Shown: in pieces, positions 13,399 to 62,813 of the stretch | How positions within the stretch are numbered: the stretch's first letter is position 1 | Layout: every line of letters begins with the position of its first letter | NCBI RefSeq assembly: GCF_028714215.1 | Contig: NZ_JAQTMS010000001.1 | Coordinates: 127,010-191,009, forward strand | DNA length: 64,000 nt | Reading direction: 5' to 3' | Source: Rhodoferax sp. | Lineage (GTDB): Bacteria > Pseudomonadota > Gammaproteobacteria > Burkholderiales > Burkholderiaceae_C | The notes under the pieces: model-generated | Told to the model about the DNA's origin: nothing | What the model saw: the letters and a program-made list of their open reading frames with translations, nothing else | Databases searched by the model: none | Translations under genes and position numbers: made by a program

Positions 13399-14385
13399 TT
13401 ACAGCAAATGCGCAACGCCGGCTTGTTCGTCCTGCAACTCCTTGAGGGTCTTGTTGATGCACTCCTGGCTGAACGCATCGATCGCCAAGCCCTCGACCAG
13501 CTTGTATTCGCCACCCGAACAAGTCACGGCAAAACCAAACATCGTGTCCTTCGGAATGCCGTACTGGCCGTCCGAGGGAATGCCCATGGTGACCCACTTG
13601 CCGTTGGTACCGAGCGCCCAGTCGCGCATATGGTCAATGGCGGCGTTTGCCGCGGAGGCGGCCGAAGACACGCCACGGGCCGCAATGATGGCTGCCCCGC
13701 GCTTGCCCACCGTGGGCAGGAAGGTGTTCACATTCCAGTCTTGGTCGTTGATCATGTCCTTGACACTGGCGCCATTGATGGTGGCAAAACGATAGTCGGC
13801 GTACATGGTGGGTGAATGGTTGCCCCACACCGTCAACTTCTCGATATCGGCAACCGCCTTGCCGGTTTTGGCGGCGATCTGGCTCAAGGCGCGGTTGTGG
13901 TCCAAGCGCAGCATGGCAGTGAAGTTCTTGCGCGGCAGGTCGGGCGCGCTCTTCATGGCGATGTAGGCATTGGTATTGGCCGGGTTGCCGACCACCAGGA
14001 CCTTGACATTGCGGCTGGCCACGGCGTTGAGAGCCTTGCCTTGGGCCGTGAAGATCTGGGCGTTGGCGGCCAGCAGGTCGGCCCGCTCCATGCCGGGGCC
14101 ACGCGGACGCGCACCGACCAACAGAGCGTAGTCCACGTCCTTGAACGCCGTCATCGGGTCGGAATGGGCTTCCATGCCGGCCAGCAACGGGAAAGCGCAG
14201 TCCTGCAGTTCCATCATGACGCCTTGCAGGGCTTGCTGTGGCTTCTCCAGGGGAACCTCCAGCAATTGCAGAATGACGGGTTGGTCTTTGCCCAACATCT
14301 CGCCGGCAGCGATGCGAAACAGGATTGCGTAACCAATTTGACCGGCGGCGCCGGTAACGGCAACGCGGACAGGCTTCTTGCTCAT
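13399..14385 (-). CDS. mdh: Malate dehydrogenase
   Basis: This is a 328-residue NAD-dependent malate dehydrogenase of the beta-proteobacterial LDH-like/MDH type. It begins [26 protein letters not shown], with the Rossmann glycine motif TGAAGQIGY near residue 11. Substrate-binding [13 protein letters not shown] (about 94-106) and the catalytic [12 protein letters not shown] (His about 188) follow. The ATG at 14385 is used; the in-frame extension upstream lacks a ribosome-binding site. It is divergent from the GntR gene, with a perfect 12-bp palindrome in the shared 186-bp control region. Confidence 0.97.
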
Positions 14386-14506
14386 GGTGAGTACTCCAGA
14401 GTTGTTGTGAAACGGGTGCTGGGACGGCTCAAGCGGACCACCTGAGTCCCACAAAATTCACTCTTAGTTTACTCTGGAAAACCCTGCACCGTCAATTTGT
14501 CTTATG

Positions 14507-14518
14507 TCTTATATAAGA
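14507..14518. promoter_or_regulatory. Palindromic operator candidate between mdh and gntR
   Basis: TCTTATATAAGA is a perfect 12-bp palindrome in the divergent mdh/gntR control region, 53 bp before the gntR start. A half-site, GTCTTATG, directly precedes it. The size and AT-rich centre suit a GntR/HutC dimer. Binding by the adjacent regulator is inference. Confidence 0.55.
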
Positions 14519-14571: not shown

Positions 14572-15375
14572 ATGTCCACAACATCCTTCCGATCTGCCAA
14601 CAACAGCCCTGCGGCCAGCAACGGCGGCACGTCCGGCGGCGCCACGCTGACGCCCTCGTTCAGTCCTCTTTACCAGCAAATCAAGGGGCTGATATTGAAC
14701 GGCTTGCGGCTTGGCGAATGGAAACCAGGCGAAGTGATCCCCAGTGAGATGGACCTGGCAACCCGCTTTCATGTCAGCCAGGGCACGGTACGCAAGGCGA
14801 TCGACGATCTCGCCACCGAGAACCTGCTGGTGCGACGACAAGGCAAGGGCACTTTTGTGGCCACCCACGCGGAGCAGCAGGCGCAATTCCGTTTCCTGAA
14901 GCTGGTACCCAATAGCGGCACACCCGGCAGCGAAGGCCCCGCCCAGCGTCACATCATTGAGTGCCGCCGCACCAGCGCCAGCGCCAATATCGCGCGCGCC
15001 TTGGCGCTGCGCACCGGTGATGCCGTGCTGCAGGCACGCCGCGTATTGAGTTTTGTCGGCACCCCCGCCATTCTGGAAGACATCTGGTTGCCGGCCGCCC
15101 CCTTCAAAGGCTTGACCGCTGAACGCCTGGCCAATTACCAGGGTCCCATGTACGCCTTGTTTGAGACCGAATTCAATGTCCGCATGGTTCGGGCCGAGGA
15201 AAAGATACGCGCCGAGCCGGCCGCCAACGGTCGTGAAAAGCTGTTGCAAGTAGCGTCCGGCACACCCTTGCTGAGCGTCGAGCGGATTGCCTATACCTAT
15301 AAGGACGTGCCGATGGAACTGCGCCGCGGCTACTACCGCACCGACACCCACTATTACCACAACCGATTGAGCTGA
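14572..15375 (+). CDS. GntR family (HutC subfamily) transcriptional regulator
   Basis: This is a 267-residue regulator. The winged helix-turn-helix spans residues about 25-95: SPLYQQIKGLILNGLRLGEWKPGE, then MDLATRFHVSQGTVRKAIDDLATENLLVRRQGKGTFV. The C-terminal UTRA effector domain (about 110-255) includes ILEDIWLPAAPFKGLT and PLLSVERIAYTYKDVPMELRRGYYRTD. In relatives this gene precedes sdhCDAB and is assumed to control TCA genes. Here the sdh genes are missing, so its remaining targets may be mdh, gltA and itself. The effector is unknown. Confidence 0.93.
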   Translation: MSTTSFRSANNSPAASNGGTSGGATLTPSFSPLYQQIKGLILNGLRLGEWKPGEVIPSEMDLATRFHVSQGTVRKAIDDLATENLLVRRQGKGTFVATHAEQQAQFRFLKLVPNSGTPGSEGPAQRHIIECRRTSASANIARALALRTGDAVLQARRVLSFVGTPAILEDIWLPAAPFKGLTAERLANYQGPMYALFETEFNVRMVRAEEKIRAEPAANGREKLLQVASGTPLLSVERIAYTYKDVPMELRRGYYRTDTHYYHNRLS

Positions 15376-15569
15376 GCGCTTTGCCGTTCGAGCGCCTGGC
15401 GGCCTAGGCAGGCGGTCTGTCAGCCCCTCACCGGCCGCCGCGCCACGCCTGCCGCGAATGGCATCGAAGTGTGCCGCAAGGGACTCGATCCAACCAGAGC
15501 AGCCGGTAAAATCAAAAAACGACGCTGATACGCAGCTTTGAGGTTGATCAATATCGGGGCCGACGCGCT
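15376..15569. other. Gap left where sdhCDAB is expected
   Basis: These 194 bp between the gntR stop and the sdhE relic hold no convincing reading frame or similarity to SdhC, SdhD, SdhA or SdhB. The stretch from about 15500 becomes AT-richer, with TTGATC near 15544 and TATGGT near 15569 as a weak promoter possibility for gltA. Confidence 0.55.
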
Positions 15570-15875
15570 ATGGTACAAACCAGCGATCTGATCGATTCGA
15601 GGTCCTTGGGCAAGTTGAAATGGCGTTGTCGCCGCAGCTTGCCTGGGAGTGGTTTTTTCGTCGAGCGGTTTTCAGCGTTTTGATTGAGACTGACCGACCG
15701 GCAGTCGCAAGTTCTGAACGCTTGAAGGGAACTCAGTGACGAAGATCTGCCGGACTTGCTTTTGGCGCGCCAAGCGCCGATACAAGTCAACGCCGGTCTT
15801 GGTCGGAGCCAGGTACGTGAAATTTTGTGTATGTTGAAAGAAACCCTTGAAAGGCAAAGAAATGAAATTAGCTGA
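15570..15875 (+). pseudogene. sdhE: Decayed sdhE (succinate dehydrogenase flavinylation factor)
   Basis: One reading frame from the ATG at 15570 matches SdhE along its whole length but is stopped by TGA at 15681 and again at 15723. Recognisable blocks are SLGKLKWRCRRSL, FFVERF, LTDRQSQVLNA, ELSDEDLPDLLLARQAP and [13 protein letters not shown]. The functional RGxxE motif is lost (RRSLPG where RRGLLE is usual). All homologous segments stay in a single frame, so decay was by substitution. The frame ends inside the gltA start region, which fits the usual sdhE-gltA spacing. The sdhCDAB genes expected upstream are absent. No protein function is expected. Confidence 0.85.
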
Positions 15876-17172
15876 CAACAAAGCCACCCTGTCGTTCAGT
15901 AACGGCAGCCCCAGTGTCGATTTGCCGGTATATCAGGGCAGTGTCGGGCCTGATGTCGTTGACATCCGCAAGCTCTACGCACAGACCGGCATGTTCACTT
16001 ACGATCCGGGGTTCCTCTCTACCGCCTCCTGCCAGTCGGCCATTACCTACATTGACGGCGACAAGGGTGAACTGCTGTACCGTGGTTACCCGATCGAGCA
16101 ATTGGCCACCAATTGCGACTTCCTGGAAACCTGCCATCTGCTGTTGTACGGCAACCTGCCCAATGCCGCCGCGAAAGCCGACTTCACCAAACGCGTAACC
16201 CATCACACGATGGTCAACGAACAAATGCAGTTCTTCCTGCGCGGCTTCCGCCGCGATGCCCATCCGATGGCCATCATGACCGGGCTGGTGGGAGCCCTGT
16301 CTGCCTTCTACCATGACAGCACCGACATCAACAATCCGGAACATCGTGAAATTGCCGCGCTGCGCCTGATTGCCAAGATGCCGACACTGGTCGCCATGGC
16401 CTACAAATACAGCATGGGGCAACCCTATATGTATCCCCGGAACAACCTGAGCTATGCCGGCAACTTTTTGCACATGATGTTCGCCACCCCCTGCGAAAAC
16501 TATGTGGTCAACCCGGTCATCGAACGCGCCTTGGACCGCATTTTCGTGCTGCACGCGGATCACGAACAGAACGCGTCCACCTCCACCGTTCGCCTCTGCG
16601 GCAGTTCCGGCACCAACCCGTTTGCCGCTATCGCCGCGGGCGTGGCCTGCCTCTGGGGCCCGGCGCACGGCGGCGCCAACGAAGCCTGCCTGAACATGCT
16701 TGAAGAGATCCAGAAAACGGGCGGCATTGCGAAAGTCGGCCAGTTCATGGAACAGGTCAAGGACAAGAATTCCGGCGTCAAGCTGATGGGCTTTGGGCAC
16801 CGGGTCTACAAGAATTACGATCCGCGCGCCAAGTTGATGCAGGAAACCTGCAAGGAAGTTCTGGCCGCGCTGGGACTCGAAAACGACCCCTTGTTCAAAC
16901 TGGCCATGGCGCTGGAGAAGATTGCGCTGGAAGACGACTATTTCGTCACCCGCAAACTCTATCCCAACGTCGACTTCTACTCCGGCATCGTGCAGCGCGC
17001 CATCGGCATCCCGGTCAACATGTTCACCGGCGTTTTCGCGCTGGCCCGCACGGTCGGCTGGATTGCGCAGCTCAATGAAATGATCAGCGATCCCGAGTAC
17101 AAGATTGGTCGTCCGCGTCAATTGTTCTCCGGCTCGGTCAAGCGCGATGTGCTGCCGCTAGCCCAGCGCTGA
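15862..17172 (+). CDS. gltA: Citrate synthase
   Basis: This is a 436-residue type II (hexameric, NADH-regulated class) citrate synthase condensing oxaloacetate and acetyl-CoA. The ATG at 15862 follows an AAAGG ribosome-binding site and gives [15 protein letters not shown]; a TTG five codons upstream is less likely. Key segments are the catalytic-region [26 protein letters not shown] with its His, [12 protein letters not shown] and [14 protein letters not shown] with the second His. A strong terminator follows. The gene lies directly after the sdhE relic, so its promoter must have been re-established after loss of the sdh operon. Confidence 0.97.
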
Positions 17173-59885: not shown

Positions 59886-62813
59886 CTAGCGTACCCGATT
59901 GCGGCCTTCCTGCTTGGCCCGGTACAGTGCCGCGTCGGCTTGCGCCACCAGGGCCGCGGCCGAGGTCTGCTCGGAAGGAATGCAGGACGCCACCCCCAGG
60001 CTGATGGTCACCACCGGCCCCACCGGCGAGGTGGGATGCACAATCGCCAGCGCCTCGCAGGCGGCCCTTAGATCCTCGGCCACGGCCAGCGCCGTGGCGT
60101 GATCCGCGGCCGGAATCAGGACGACGAATTCCTCACCCCCGTAACGCGCCGCCAGATCACCGGCCCGGCCCAGCGACCGAAGGAAGATATCGGCCACCGC
60201 GGCCAGGCAGCGGTCCCCTGCCGGGTGCCCCATGGCATCGTTGTACTGTTTGAAACCGTCGACGTCGGCCATCACAACGGCCAGCGGCATGTGCAAGCGA
60301 CTGGCGCGCCGCCACTCCTTGTCCAGGGTTTCGTCAAAGCAGCGGCGGTTCGCCAGCCCGGTCAGCGCGTCGACGAACGAAAGCCGCGACAGGTGCTCGT
60401 TCGCCAGCCTGAGTTCCTCCGTTCTTTCCCTCACCAGACGCTCCATCTCCAGATTCCTGGCACGCAGATTGCGCGTGCGCAAGCGGAACAGGGTCGCGAT
60501 CCCGGCCAGCAGGGCGAGCAGCGCAACAGCCCTGAACCAGGCGGTCTGGTAGAGGTACGGTTTCACGGTGACGGGCAGCACGTCTTGGCTCTCGCTCCAG
60601 TGCGTCCCGTCGATCGAGGCGGCGACCCGGAAGCGGTAGCTGCCATGGGGCAAGGCCGGGAACGAGGCTTCGCGACTGCGGCCCGCATCGACCCAGTCGC
60701 GCGTGATCCCCTCCATCTGGTAACGGAATCTCACGCGGTCGGCGTTGTTCAGCGTCATGGCGGTATAGCGGATCGACAGGGGAGCCGACCCGGGCGGCAG
60801 AACCACCTCGGCGTCGCTGGCTCCGCTGACGCCGTCCACCAGCACGTTCTCGAACCGGACGCTTGGCGGCGCGCCCGAGCCGGGCAGGTTCAAGGGATCC
60901 ACGATGACCAGGCCTTTGTTGCTGGGCAGCCATAGCCGGCCTTTGGCATCGATGGCGCCGGCCGGCTGATGCCCGCCGGCAAAAGTCGTGCTGCGCAGCG
61001 CATCGCCGGGGCCGAAGCCGGCCGAGTTCACCTTCTTGAGGCGCCCTTCCGCGAAGGCATTGAGGTCGGCCCGAGAGACCCGGTAGAAGCCCCGGTTGCA
61101 AGTCATCCAGAGGTAGCCCAGGCGATCCTCCAGAATGGTTTGGGAGATGCCGTCCCAAAGCCCGTCGGCCGGGCGGATGGCGCTCAATCGACCGTCGCGC
61201 AGGCGGTTCATCCCCATTCCGTTGGTGCCTATCCACAGGTTGGAGGACGCGTCCTCGTACAGCGCCAGGATCCAGTTCGAGACCAGGCCGTCGGCCGTGG
61301 TCAGTGCCGTGAACTTGGCGTCGCGGTAGCGGATCAGCCCCTGCCCGGTGGTTCCGAACCAGAGGCTGCCGGCGCGGTCTTCCAGGATCGTCAGCACCCC
61401 TTCGGGCGGCGCCCCCGGCTCGCGCACCGGTGCGAAGCCTTGCCCGGTGAAGCGGGCCAGGCCGGCCCGCGTGCCGGCCCACAGCGTGCCCTGGCGGTCC
61501 TGGAACAGGGCGCGCACCTCCGGATTGGGCAGCCCCTGGGCGACGCCGTAGCGCGCTATCCTTCCATCTCTCAGTCGTGCTACTCCCGCCGTATAGGTGC
61601 CGATCCACAGCCAGCCGTCACTATCCTCCAGCAGGCTGGAGATTTCGTCGGTCGGCAAGCCCTCCTTCTGCCCGATCACCGTGATCCGATCGCCTTCGAT
61701 CCGGTTCAGCCCGCCGCCCGCGGTGGAGACCCAGGTCACCCCGTTGCGGGCGTGCAGCACGGAACGCGTGTTGTCGCTGGAAAGCCCCTCGGGCGTGCCG
61801 AAGGCGACGAAGGCCCGGTTGCGCAGCCGGTTCAGGCCGCCGGTCCAGGTGCCGGTCCAGACACTGCCTTCCCGATCGACGTGAAGCGCCCAGATCTGAT
61901 CGCCGGCCAGCCCGCCCGCGGTCGAAATCGACGTGAAGCGGCCCGCGCTCATGCGGCTGACGCCGGCGCCCCAGGTGCCGATCCAGAGGGCTCCCTGTTG
62001 ATCGCGCGCCAGTGCCGTCAGCTGGTCGGTGGGCAGACCGTCGGCCACCGTGTAGGTCTTGATGCTGCCGTGATCGACATGGACCAGACCACCCCCGGCA
62101 GTGGCGGCCCAGATGCCGCCGCCCGGATCGGCCAGCACCGAGCGGACCTCCAGGCTGGGAAAGCCGTTGGCCGGCGTCAGGACCTGGAACCGATTCGCCG
62201 CGAACGAAACCAGACCGCCGCCGGTGCTGCCGATCCACAGGGTACCGTCGCGGTCAAAAGCCAGCGTGCGCAGCCGGTTGGTGGGCAGGCCGTCAGCCTG
62301 CTGGTAAACCTTGGTGACGCCGTTTTCCCAGCGCACCAGCCCGTTCTCGGTGGCGGCCCAGACGACCCCATCGCTGGCCTGCGCAAAGGCCCAGACGCGC
62401 CGGCCGGCGCTCACTTGTTCGGAGATGGCAACCTGAAACTTTCCGTTGCGATAGAGGGCCGCGCCCTTGCTGTGGCCGATCCAGAGATTTTGCTGCGCGT
62501 CCTCCATCAGACCAAAGATCGGCTGGGAGGACACATCCGGCACCTGCGGCGATTCATAGGTCGTGAAGCGCACGCCGTCGAAGCGCGCCAGCCCGCCCGC
62601 GGTTCCGACCCAGAGGTAACCGTCGCGCGTCTGCAGCAGGGTCTGAACGGTGTTCAGGGGCAGCCCTTGCTCGGTCTGCCAGCCGTCGATCTTGTACTGG
62701 GTGAGAGCCTTGCCCGGATCACCCGGCCCGGCGCCCCAGGCCGGCCCCGCTCCCAGCGTCAACGCCATCGAGAGGAAGCAACACAGCCAAGCCAGCCACC
62801 GCGGTAGCGTCAT
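59886..62813 (-). CDS. Propeller-Y_Y_Y-GGDEF sensor diguanylate cyclase
   Basis: This is a 975-residue membrane sensor. A signal peptide (about 1-27) precedes a two-component-regulator-type periplasmic propeller made of about 14 repeats (GYLWVGTAGGLARFDG type, residues about 40-620). A Y_Y_Y domain (about 660-745, YRFRVAASIDGTHW) and a single transmembrane helix (about 757-775, AVALLALLAGIATLF) follow. The cytoplasmic GGDEF domain has RYGGEEF and the inhibitory I-site RAGD five residues before it. It should make cyclic-di-GMP in response to an unknown extracytoplasmic ligand. No histidine kinase domain is present, unlike most proteins with this sensor. Confidence 0.93.
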   Translation of the reverse strand: MTLPRWLAWLCCFLSMALTLGAGPAWGAGPGDPGKALTQYKIDGWQTEQGLPLNTVQTLLQTRDGYLWVGTAGGLARFDGVRFTTYESPQVPDVSSQPIFGLMEDAQQNLWIGHSKGAALYRNGKFQVAISEQVSAGRRVWAFAQASDGVVWAATENGLVRWENGVTKVYQQADGLPTNRLRTLAFDRDGTLWIGSTGGGLVSFAANRFQVLTPANGFPSLEVRSVLADPGGGIWAATAGGGLVHVDHGSIKTYTVADGLPTDQLTALARDQQGALWIGTWGAGVSRMSAGRFTSISTAGGLAGDQIWALHVDREGSVWTGTWTGGLNRLRNRAFVAFGTPEGLSSDNTRSVLHARNGVTWVSTAGGGLNRIEGDRITVIGQKEGLPTDEISSLLEDSDGWLWIGTYTAGVARLRDGRIARYGVAQGLPNPEVRALFQDRQGTLWAGTRAGLARFTGQGFAPVREPGAPPEGVLTILEDRAGSLWFGTTGQGLIRYRDAKFTALTTADGLVSNWILALYEDASSNLWIGTNGMGMNRLRDGRLSAIRPADGLWDGISQTILEDRLGYLWMTCNRGFYRVSRADLNAFAEGRLKKVNSAGFGPGDALRSTTFAGGHQPAGAIDAKGRLWLPSNKGLVIVDPLNLPGSGAPPSVRFENVLVDGVSGASDAEVVLPPGSAPLSIRYTAMTLNNADRVRFRYQMEGITRDWVDAGRSREASFPALPHGSYRFRVAASIDGTHWSESQDVLPVTVKPYLYQTAWFRAVALLALLAGIATLFRLRTRNLRARNLEMERLVRERTEELRLANEHLSRLSFVDALTGLANRRCFDETLDKEWRRASRLHMPLAVVMADVDGFKQYNDAMGHPAGDRCLAAVADIFLRSLGRAGDLAARYGGEEFVVLIPAADHATALAVAEDLRAACEALAIVHPTSPVGPVVTISLGVASCIPSEQTSAAALVAQADAALYRAKQEGRNRVR

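Follow-up and report, generated by a model that had tools for sequence, protein, structure and literature searches.

Loss of sdhCDAB from its conserved place in a Rhodoferax genome in which FrdABCD is the only membrane complex II found

Genes and remnants between mdh and gltA

The window, by which we mean the whole stretch of 64,000 nucleotides that was analysed, covers positions 127010-191009 of contig C1 of a Rhodoferax draft assembly (G000; 5.16 Mb in 116 contigs, 100% completeness, 3.5% contamination). By profile search, mdh, gntR, and gltA each fall into the expected family (Table 1), and all three are intact, as an earlier note made from the letters of this DNA had claimed. The distance of 486 bp that it gave between gntR and gltA agrees with the end of gntR at 15375 and the ATG of gltA at 15862, the gltA reading frame being also open from a TTG at 15847. 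The gene order that the note gave, with sdh following gntR, is indeed that of the relatives: of the 80 named ones, 74 have sdhA 3' of gntR, whereas in the remaining six the contig stops 88-1300 bp past gntR, and at the loci that reach as far as gltA the distance between gntR and gltA is 3.8-5.8 kb. The comparison thus speaks against the idea that close relatives normally lack sdh at this place. Elsewhere in the window, an ORF of 975 amino acids (59886-62813) has, by eye, an N-terminus like the propellers of two-component regulators and a GGDEF-like C-terminus.

Table 1. Features of the mdh-gltA region, in positions of the window
Feature	Position	Strand	Basis and remarks
mdh, malate dehydrogenase, intact	13399..14454	-	divergent from gntR; NF003916, 561 bits vs cut-off 271
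perfect 12-bp palindrome TCTTATATAAGA, putative GntR operator (binding presumed)	14507..14518	.	between mdh and gntR
gntR, HutC/UTRA-type GntR regulator, intact	14572..15375	+	PF00392 and PF07702 over cut-off
sdhB 3'-end relic	15416..15541	+	clear from 15456, weaker in 15416-15455; old stop near 15539-15541; blastn and MAFFT vs relatives
sdhE pseudogene	15570..15833	+	two in-frame TGA (15681, 15723), net 3-nt deletion, RGxxE motif lost
gltA, citrate synthase, intact	15862..17172	+	TIGR01798, 771 bits vs cut-off 485

The gap between gntR and gltA is real, and it is a deletion scar. With gltA excluded, the stretch 15456-15846 resembles the 3' end of sdhB and sdhE of the relatives, with 70-73% identity over 396 bp to four loci (L088, L079, L080, and L084), the best match being 73% to L088 (E 4e-73). 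When 15456-15990 was compared with the same four loci, the identity was 74-76% over 540 bp, from the sdhB tail through sdhE into the start of gltA, and in a few relatives the alignment begins already at about 15416. The gap stretch was matched by 50 of the 80 relatives' loci at E values up to 1e-5 and by none of 100 shuffles of the stretch. The sdhE relic opens with an ATG, reads RSLPG where the relatives have RGLLE, and is covered end to end by a tblastn query of 89 sdhE residues from L079; the end of the relic in Table 1 is the end of this match, and the relatives' frame continues into gltA. No match to sdhC, sdhD, or sdhA was found within the 486-bp gap, and about 40-80 bp directly 3' of gntR have no clear origin. 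The genes missing from the locus are sdhC, sdhD, sdhA, and most of sdhB. The statement of the earlier note that the gap holds no SdhC, D, A, or B sequence stands for the first three and fails for sdhB, whose tail is present as a relic together with the sdhE pseudogene.

The decayed state of this sdhB/sdhE relic speaks most strongly against an assembly collapse, which the note had named as a possible cause, and against an ancestral absence of the operon. The best explanation is that a deletion specific to this lineage, of about 3.3 kb by comparison with L079, took sdhC, sdhD, sdhA, and most of sdhB, after which the leftover sdhB tail and sdhE, observed now as relics, would have decayed.

Complex II genes in the rest of the assembly

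The whole assembly was searched for SdhA/SdhB and FrdA/FrdB, as the note had proposed, and also for the membrane subunits and SdhE. With the SdhA model TIGR01816, for which 13 of 30 first-look candidates were scored, no protein exceeded the cut-off; the best was FrdA (585 vs 727 bits), followed, among the matches that were listed for G000, by the L-aspartate oxidase on contig C44. Similarly, PF02910, the C-terminal domain of SdhA/FrdA, detected only FrdA and NadB (all five candidates scored). With the SdhB model PF13085, FrdB was the sole strong match in the assembly, accompanied by four partial matches at 24-28 bits, two of them just above the cut-off of 27, and PF01127 for the membrane subunits found only FrdD, below its cut-off. 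No match was obtained for SdhE (PF03937; all five candidates scored), a protein that is matched in 84 of 89 genomes of the genus; an SdhA over the cut-off is present in 77 of the 89. Apart from the Frd subunits, the genome thus appears to hold no convincing SdhB or SdhC. Relocation of sdh within the genome, which the note had considered, was rejected by these searches with SdhA, SdhB, and SdhC/D-type models, and its claim that sdhCDAB was lost from the conserved place is borne out both by the relic at the site and by the lack of an SdhA over the cut-off elsewhere in the assembly.

A single membrane complex II, FrdABCD, was found in this genome. Fumarate reductase usually runs the complex II reaction in the direction opposite to that of succinate dehydrogenase. 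The genes lie on contig C32 (L009) in the order of an OmcA/MtrC-type decahaem cytochrome, a helix-hairpin-helix (ComEA-like) ORF, a c-type cytochrome ORF, two NapC/NirT cytochromes, a 670-aa cytochrome protein, frdA, frdB, frdC, frdD, and rquA, followed on the other strand by lpxC and ftsZ, which were both named by eye from their ORFs. FrdA exceeds the equivalog cut-off of NF006686 (955 vs 854 bits) and falls narrowly below that of TIGR01176 (929.3 vs 932.7 bits), and FrdB exceeds that of NF009051 (381 vs 333 bits). The membrane part consists of two separate subunits of the FrdC and FrdD types: FrdC is over PF02300 (118 vs 24.2 bits) and below the stricter FrdC model NF003445 (85 vs 143), and FrdD is over both PF02313 (105 vs 25 bits) and NF003977 (95 vs 60). 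RquA is over NF038261 (316.6 vs 175 bits). The best PDB matches of FrdA are E. coli FrdA structures, and the other three subunits are likewise closest to E. coli Frd. Aligned with 1kf6_A, FrdA keeps the FAD-linking histidine (RSHT) and the YHPTG, TE-CRGEGG, and GPRD motifs, whose key residues were taken as H44, H232, T244, and R287, mapped by motif and with roles as given in the literature. Purifying selection acts on the frd genes much as it does in relatives (median dN/dS of frdA 0.046, vs 0.037 in relatives). The tetranucleotide correlation of the frd locus with the window was 0.969, compared with 0.974-0.992 for thirds of the window and 0.904-0.963 for the frd loci of four relatives, so that composition, in what is a weak test, gives no sign of a foreign origin.

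Several neighbours of frd deserve mention. The 670-aa protein directly upstream of frdA (L009:5260-7272) has eight CXXCH motifs and a C-terminal b-type cytochrome membrane domain; it presumably resembles the CbcL-type proteins of Geobacter, which pass electrons from quinol to multihaem proteins, and it may couple extracellular electron transfer to a quinone pool that Frd also uses. The OmcA/MtrC-family decahaem cytochrome and the two NapC/NirT cytochromes near frd-rquA occupy L009:24-4794. The MtrC homologue is only 31-42% identical in the three relatives in which it was matched at this locus, the NapC neighbours being 84-89% identical, and the presence of an MtrC-type cytochrome suggests extracellular electron transfer. 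A second RquA-like match (C53:31311-31946) reached 111 bits, below the cut-off of 175, and is of a kind common in many genomes of the genus.

Occurrence among relatives and a second genome without sdh

FrdA-range matches (long matches of 553-592 bits among those listed for TIGR01816) were found in 15 genomes of the genus, 13 of which also have SdhA, the two without it being G000 and G191. The frd locus was inspected in 13 of the 15 (G215 and G217 were left out), and 11 of these loci, including that of G000, are of one type, the FrdA of the other ten being 91-95% identical to that of G000. The frd genes of G150 and G188 are distant (FrdA 59%) and are without a C32-like context in the stretch fetched. 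Where the relevant side was in view, the 670-aa cytochrome lies directly upstream of frdA in all ten close loci, G000 included, and lpxC lies downstream of frd in all ten, G000 and G191 included; rquA stands between frdD and lpxC in nine of these, the exception being G191. Eight of the ten genomes with the frd-lpxC arrangement retain an SdhA over the cut-off. Since this frd site is common to close relatives that still have sdh, frd is a resident that is older than the loss of sdh. The proposal that sdh had been replaced by a horizontally acquired sdh/frd is therefore right in that frdABCD is present and wrong in that frd was in place before sdh was lost.

Twelve genomes of the genus are without an SdhA over the cut-off, and most of them do not represent losses: eight (G163, G169, G178, G180, G193, G201, G205, and G223) were rejected as further losses because sdh genes lie at or are cut by a contig end, two (G159 and G190; 67 and 69% completeness) may or may not be losses, and two, G000 and G191, are losses at the locus. 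In a draw from the family, 13 of 150 genomes, with G000 among them, had no SdhA over the cut-off. In four of these (G046, G051, G057, and G109), gntR is followed by sdhC, in three also by sdhD, and then by the contig end; G008, G019, G055, G074, G083, G084, G104, and G112 were left uninspected.

G191 is a 96% complete draft of 430 contigs in which mdh, gntR, and gltA are present, with 164 bp between the gntR and gltA matches. Profile searches of it gave no SdhA over the cut-off and no SdhE match, and the best match to sdh in its gap, of 40 bp (75% identity, E 0.018), is not significant. It carries frdBCD and a frdA cut by a contig start. No RquA match was obtained in G191 at 1e-20, and the MenD model gave only matches below its cut-off in all 12 genomes searched, G191 included. 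As far as these tests reach, ubiquinone would thus be the quinone remaining to the Frd of G191, and succinate oxidation its only useful reaction. The losses in G000 and G191 may or may not be one event: the two genomes grouped, weakly, in two of four trees, and a constraint joining them in an eight-gene tree was not rejected (AU p 0.44). At five FrdA residues (467, 475, 479, 489, and 548) both genomes differ from the seven relatives bearing sdhE, which is the largest number of shared sites for any pair among the nine genomes (the next being 3); this is not so for FrdB, FrdC, or FrdD. These shared changes could reflect compensation, and shared ancestry would explain them equally well.

The GntR regulator

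The palindrome TCTTATATAAGA has a single match in the window and none in 100 shuffles. Allowing one mismatch, it was found within 400 bp 5' of gntR in all 78 of the 80 named relatives that have enough DNA on that side, and in none of 78 gntR-sdhC spacers and none of 63 sdhE-gltA spacers; upstream of frdA, it had no match at up to two mismatches in any of the ten frd loci scanned. Of 78 relatives, 65 have 69-327 bp between gntR and sdhC, one has 606 bp, and 12 have 1.9-2.1 kb (L085, L087, L091, L095, L097, L099, L101, L103, L104, L106, L107, and L108), ten of which are titled Polaromonas. By simple inference from this arrangement, the regulator would act at the divergent mdh/gntR promoter, and sdh and gltA would have been read from gntR onwards. 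The median dN/dS of gntR against 15 relatives was 0.082 in G000 and 0.088 in G191, compared with 0.069 among the relatives, values that are rough with dS near or above 1; judged by them, gntR is still under purifying selection. The deletion has left mdh, gntR, and gltA in place, and the unit of gntR, scar, and gltA is probably, together with mdh, still under the same regulator. The suggestion that the main target of the regulator may be gone is therefore only partly right, because the sole candidate operator found, between mdh and gntR, is intact and gntR is under purifying selection. No published GntR regulon for an mdh-gntR-sdh-gltA locus was seen in the literature searched.

Discussion

The genomic evidence makes it most likely, in our estimate with somewhat better than even confidence, that FrdABCD works in both directions and does so without the usual flavinylation factor SdhE. 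At low oxygen, rhodoquinol made through RquA would feed FrdCD, then FrdB and FrdA, and fumarate would be reduced. With oxygen and ubiquinone, the same complex would run in reverse, oxidising succinate and closing the TCA cycle, and sdh would have become dispensable because of this backward operation. The genome keeps the E1 component of 2-oxoglutarate dehydrogenase and three matches to PF00115, a family that also includes NO reductases; the third of these matches, a frame of 763 aa, may be such a reductase. These genes suggest that oxidative metabolism was kept, and FrdABCD therefore probably acts also as a succinate dehydrogenase. The broken TCA cycle that the note had raised is not borne out, as E1 is kept and FrdABCD could oxidise succinate. 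G191, with no low-potential quinone route among the RquA and MenD tests, fits this bidirectional working best.

The main difficulty is SdhE, because the E. coli enzyme must carry its FAD covalently to oxidise succinate and neither of the two sdh-less genomes has an SdhE match. According to two studies on E. coli (PMC9557727, PMC5773532), FrdA relies heavily on SdhE to bind FAD covalently, most of the covalent FAD being lost without it, and enzymes with non-covalent FAD reduce fumarate and do not oxidise succinate; these studies also report that self-flavinylation persists without SdhE and rises at low oxygen, presumably with more fumarate. In the absence of SdhE, FrdA would attach FAD by a slower, self-catalysed route favoured by high fumarate, or would hold it non-covalently.

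The second of these possibilities leads to a different explanation, in which FrdABCD, with its FAD bound non-covalently, would now only reduce fumarate, drawing on rhodoquinol; the ability to oxidise succinate would be lost, the TCA cycle would consist of two open branches, and succinate would be an end product. This agrees with the missing SdhE match and the covalent FAD that E. coli FRD needs to oxidise succinate, and with the positions of rquA directly after frdD and of multihaem cytochrome genes directly upstream of frd. However, the retention of E1 and of the PF00115 oxidase-family matches, the conserved FAD-linking histidine of FrdA, and the self-flavinylation still reported in E. coli, particularly at low oxygen, do not favour it, and G191 lost sdh without having an RquA match, so that fumarate reduction there would be without an obvious donor. 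We consider a purely one-way enzyme rather less likely than a bidirectional one.

Far less probable is that a newly gained frd-rquA cluster displaced sdh. The genome does have an E. coli-type frd, and the distribution of rquA is described as patchy and partly due to horizontal spread (PMC11707229), but frdABCD adjoins lpxC, with rquA between them in nine, in all ten close loci in view, eight of them in genomes with SdhA, and the composition of frd does not stand out in the weak test that was applied. An assembly error hiding an existing sdhCDAB is about as improbable: the genome is a draft, and contig breaks account for eight of the 12 genus members in which no SdhA exceeded the cut-off, but here the gap sits in the interior of a contig at least 191 kb long, the 3' remnant is a mutated relic and not an intact end, and the SdhA, SdhB, SdhC/D-type, and SdhE models give only Frd subunits and weak partial matches across the assembly.

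A more far-reaching description may be put forward tentatively, with a little less than even confidence: the organism would be a facultative aerobe in which an E. coli-type FrdABCD with SdhE-free maturation serves as the only, reversible succinate dehydrogenase, using rhodoquinone and ubiquinone in turn (in G191, ubiquinone alone), so that the division of labour between sdh and frd would have collapsed into one former fumarate reductase. Such genomes are a natural experiment for asking why bacteria maintain both complex II enzymes plus a flavinylation factor. In particular, the loss of sdh and sdhE with retention of the FAD-linking histidine makes it testable whether an E. coli-type FrdA self-flavinylates enough in nature to oxidise succinate. 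Furthermore, a study of quinone evolution from 2024 suggested investigating whether the gain of low-potential quinones accompanies that of fumarate reductase (PMC11707229); the frdABCD-rquA locus of the genus bears on this question, and G000 and G191 go further by discarding sdh.

Relation to known systems

A single two-way enzyme, as in Geobacter, and the nearness of rquA to complex II genes are already known, and no description of a deletion of sdh and sdhE that leaves an E. coli-type frd alone was seen in the open-licence literature searched. Geobacter FrdCAB acts in both directions (PMC9494351). The likeness lies in one complex II being expected to serve both directions and in the MtrC-type cytochrome that G000 also has; in contrast, the Geobacter enzyme is menaquinone-linked and named from three genes, frdCAB, whereas G000 has four E. 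coli-type subunits beside rquA and relatives with sdh. An rquA gene close to complex II genes has been described in bacteria, with a second frd/sdh operon in 12 of those in the study (PMC5953543); in G000, rquA likewise adjoins a complex II operon, but the second complex has been deleted. The closest structural counterpart is E. coli FrdABCD (PDB 1kf6, 6b58), given the best PDB matches of the four subunits and the retained FAD-linking histidine and catalytic motifs, except that E. coli also has Sdh and SdhE, both of which G000 has lost, and that rquA follows the frd operon in G000. Finally, Rhodoferax ferrireducens, which belongs to the same genus group as G000, grows by fumarate dismutation, with succinate dehydrogenase modelled in both directions (PMC2755013). 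Unlike G000, both records of that name in the set of gntR loci (L082 and L126) have retained sdh in its place between the gntR and gltA genes.
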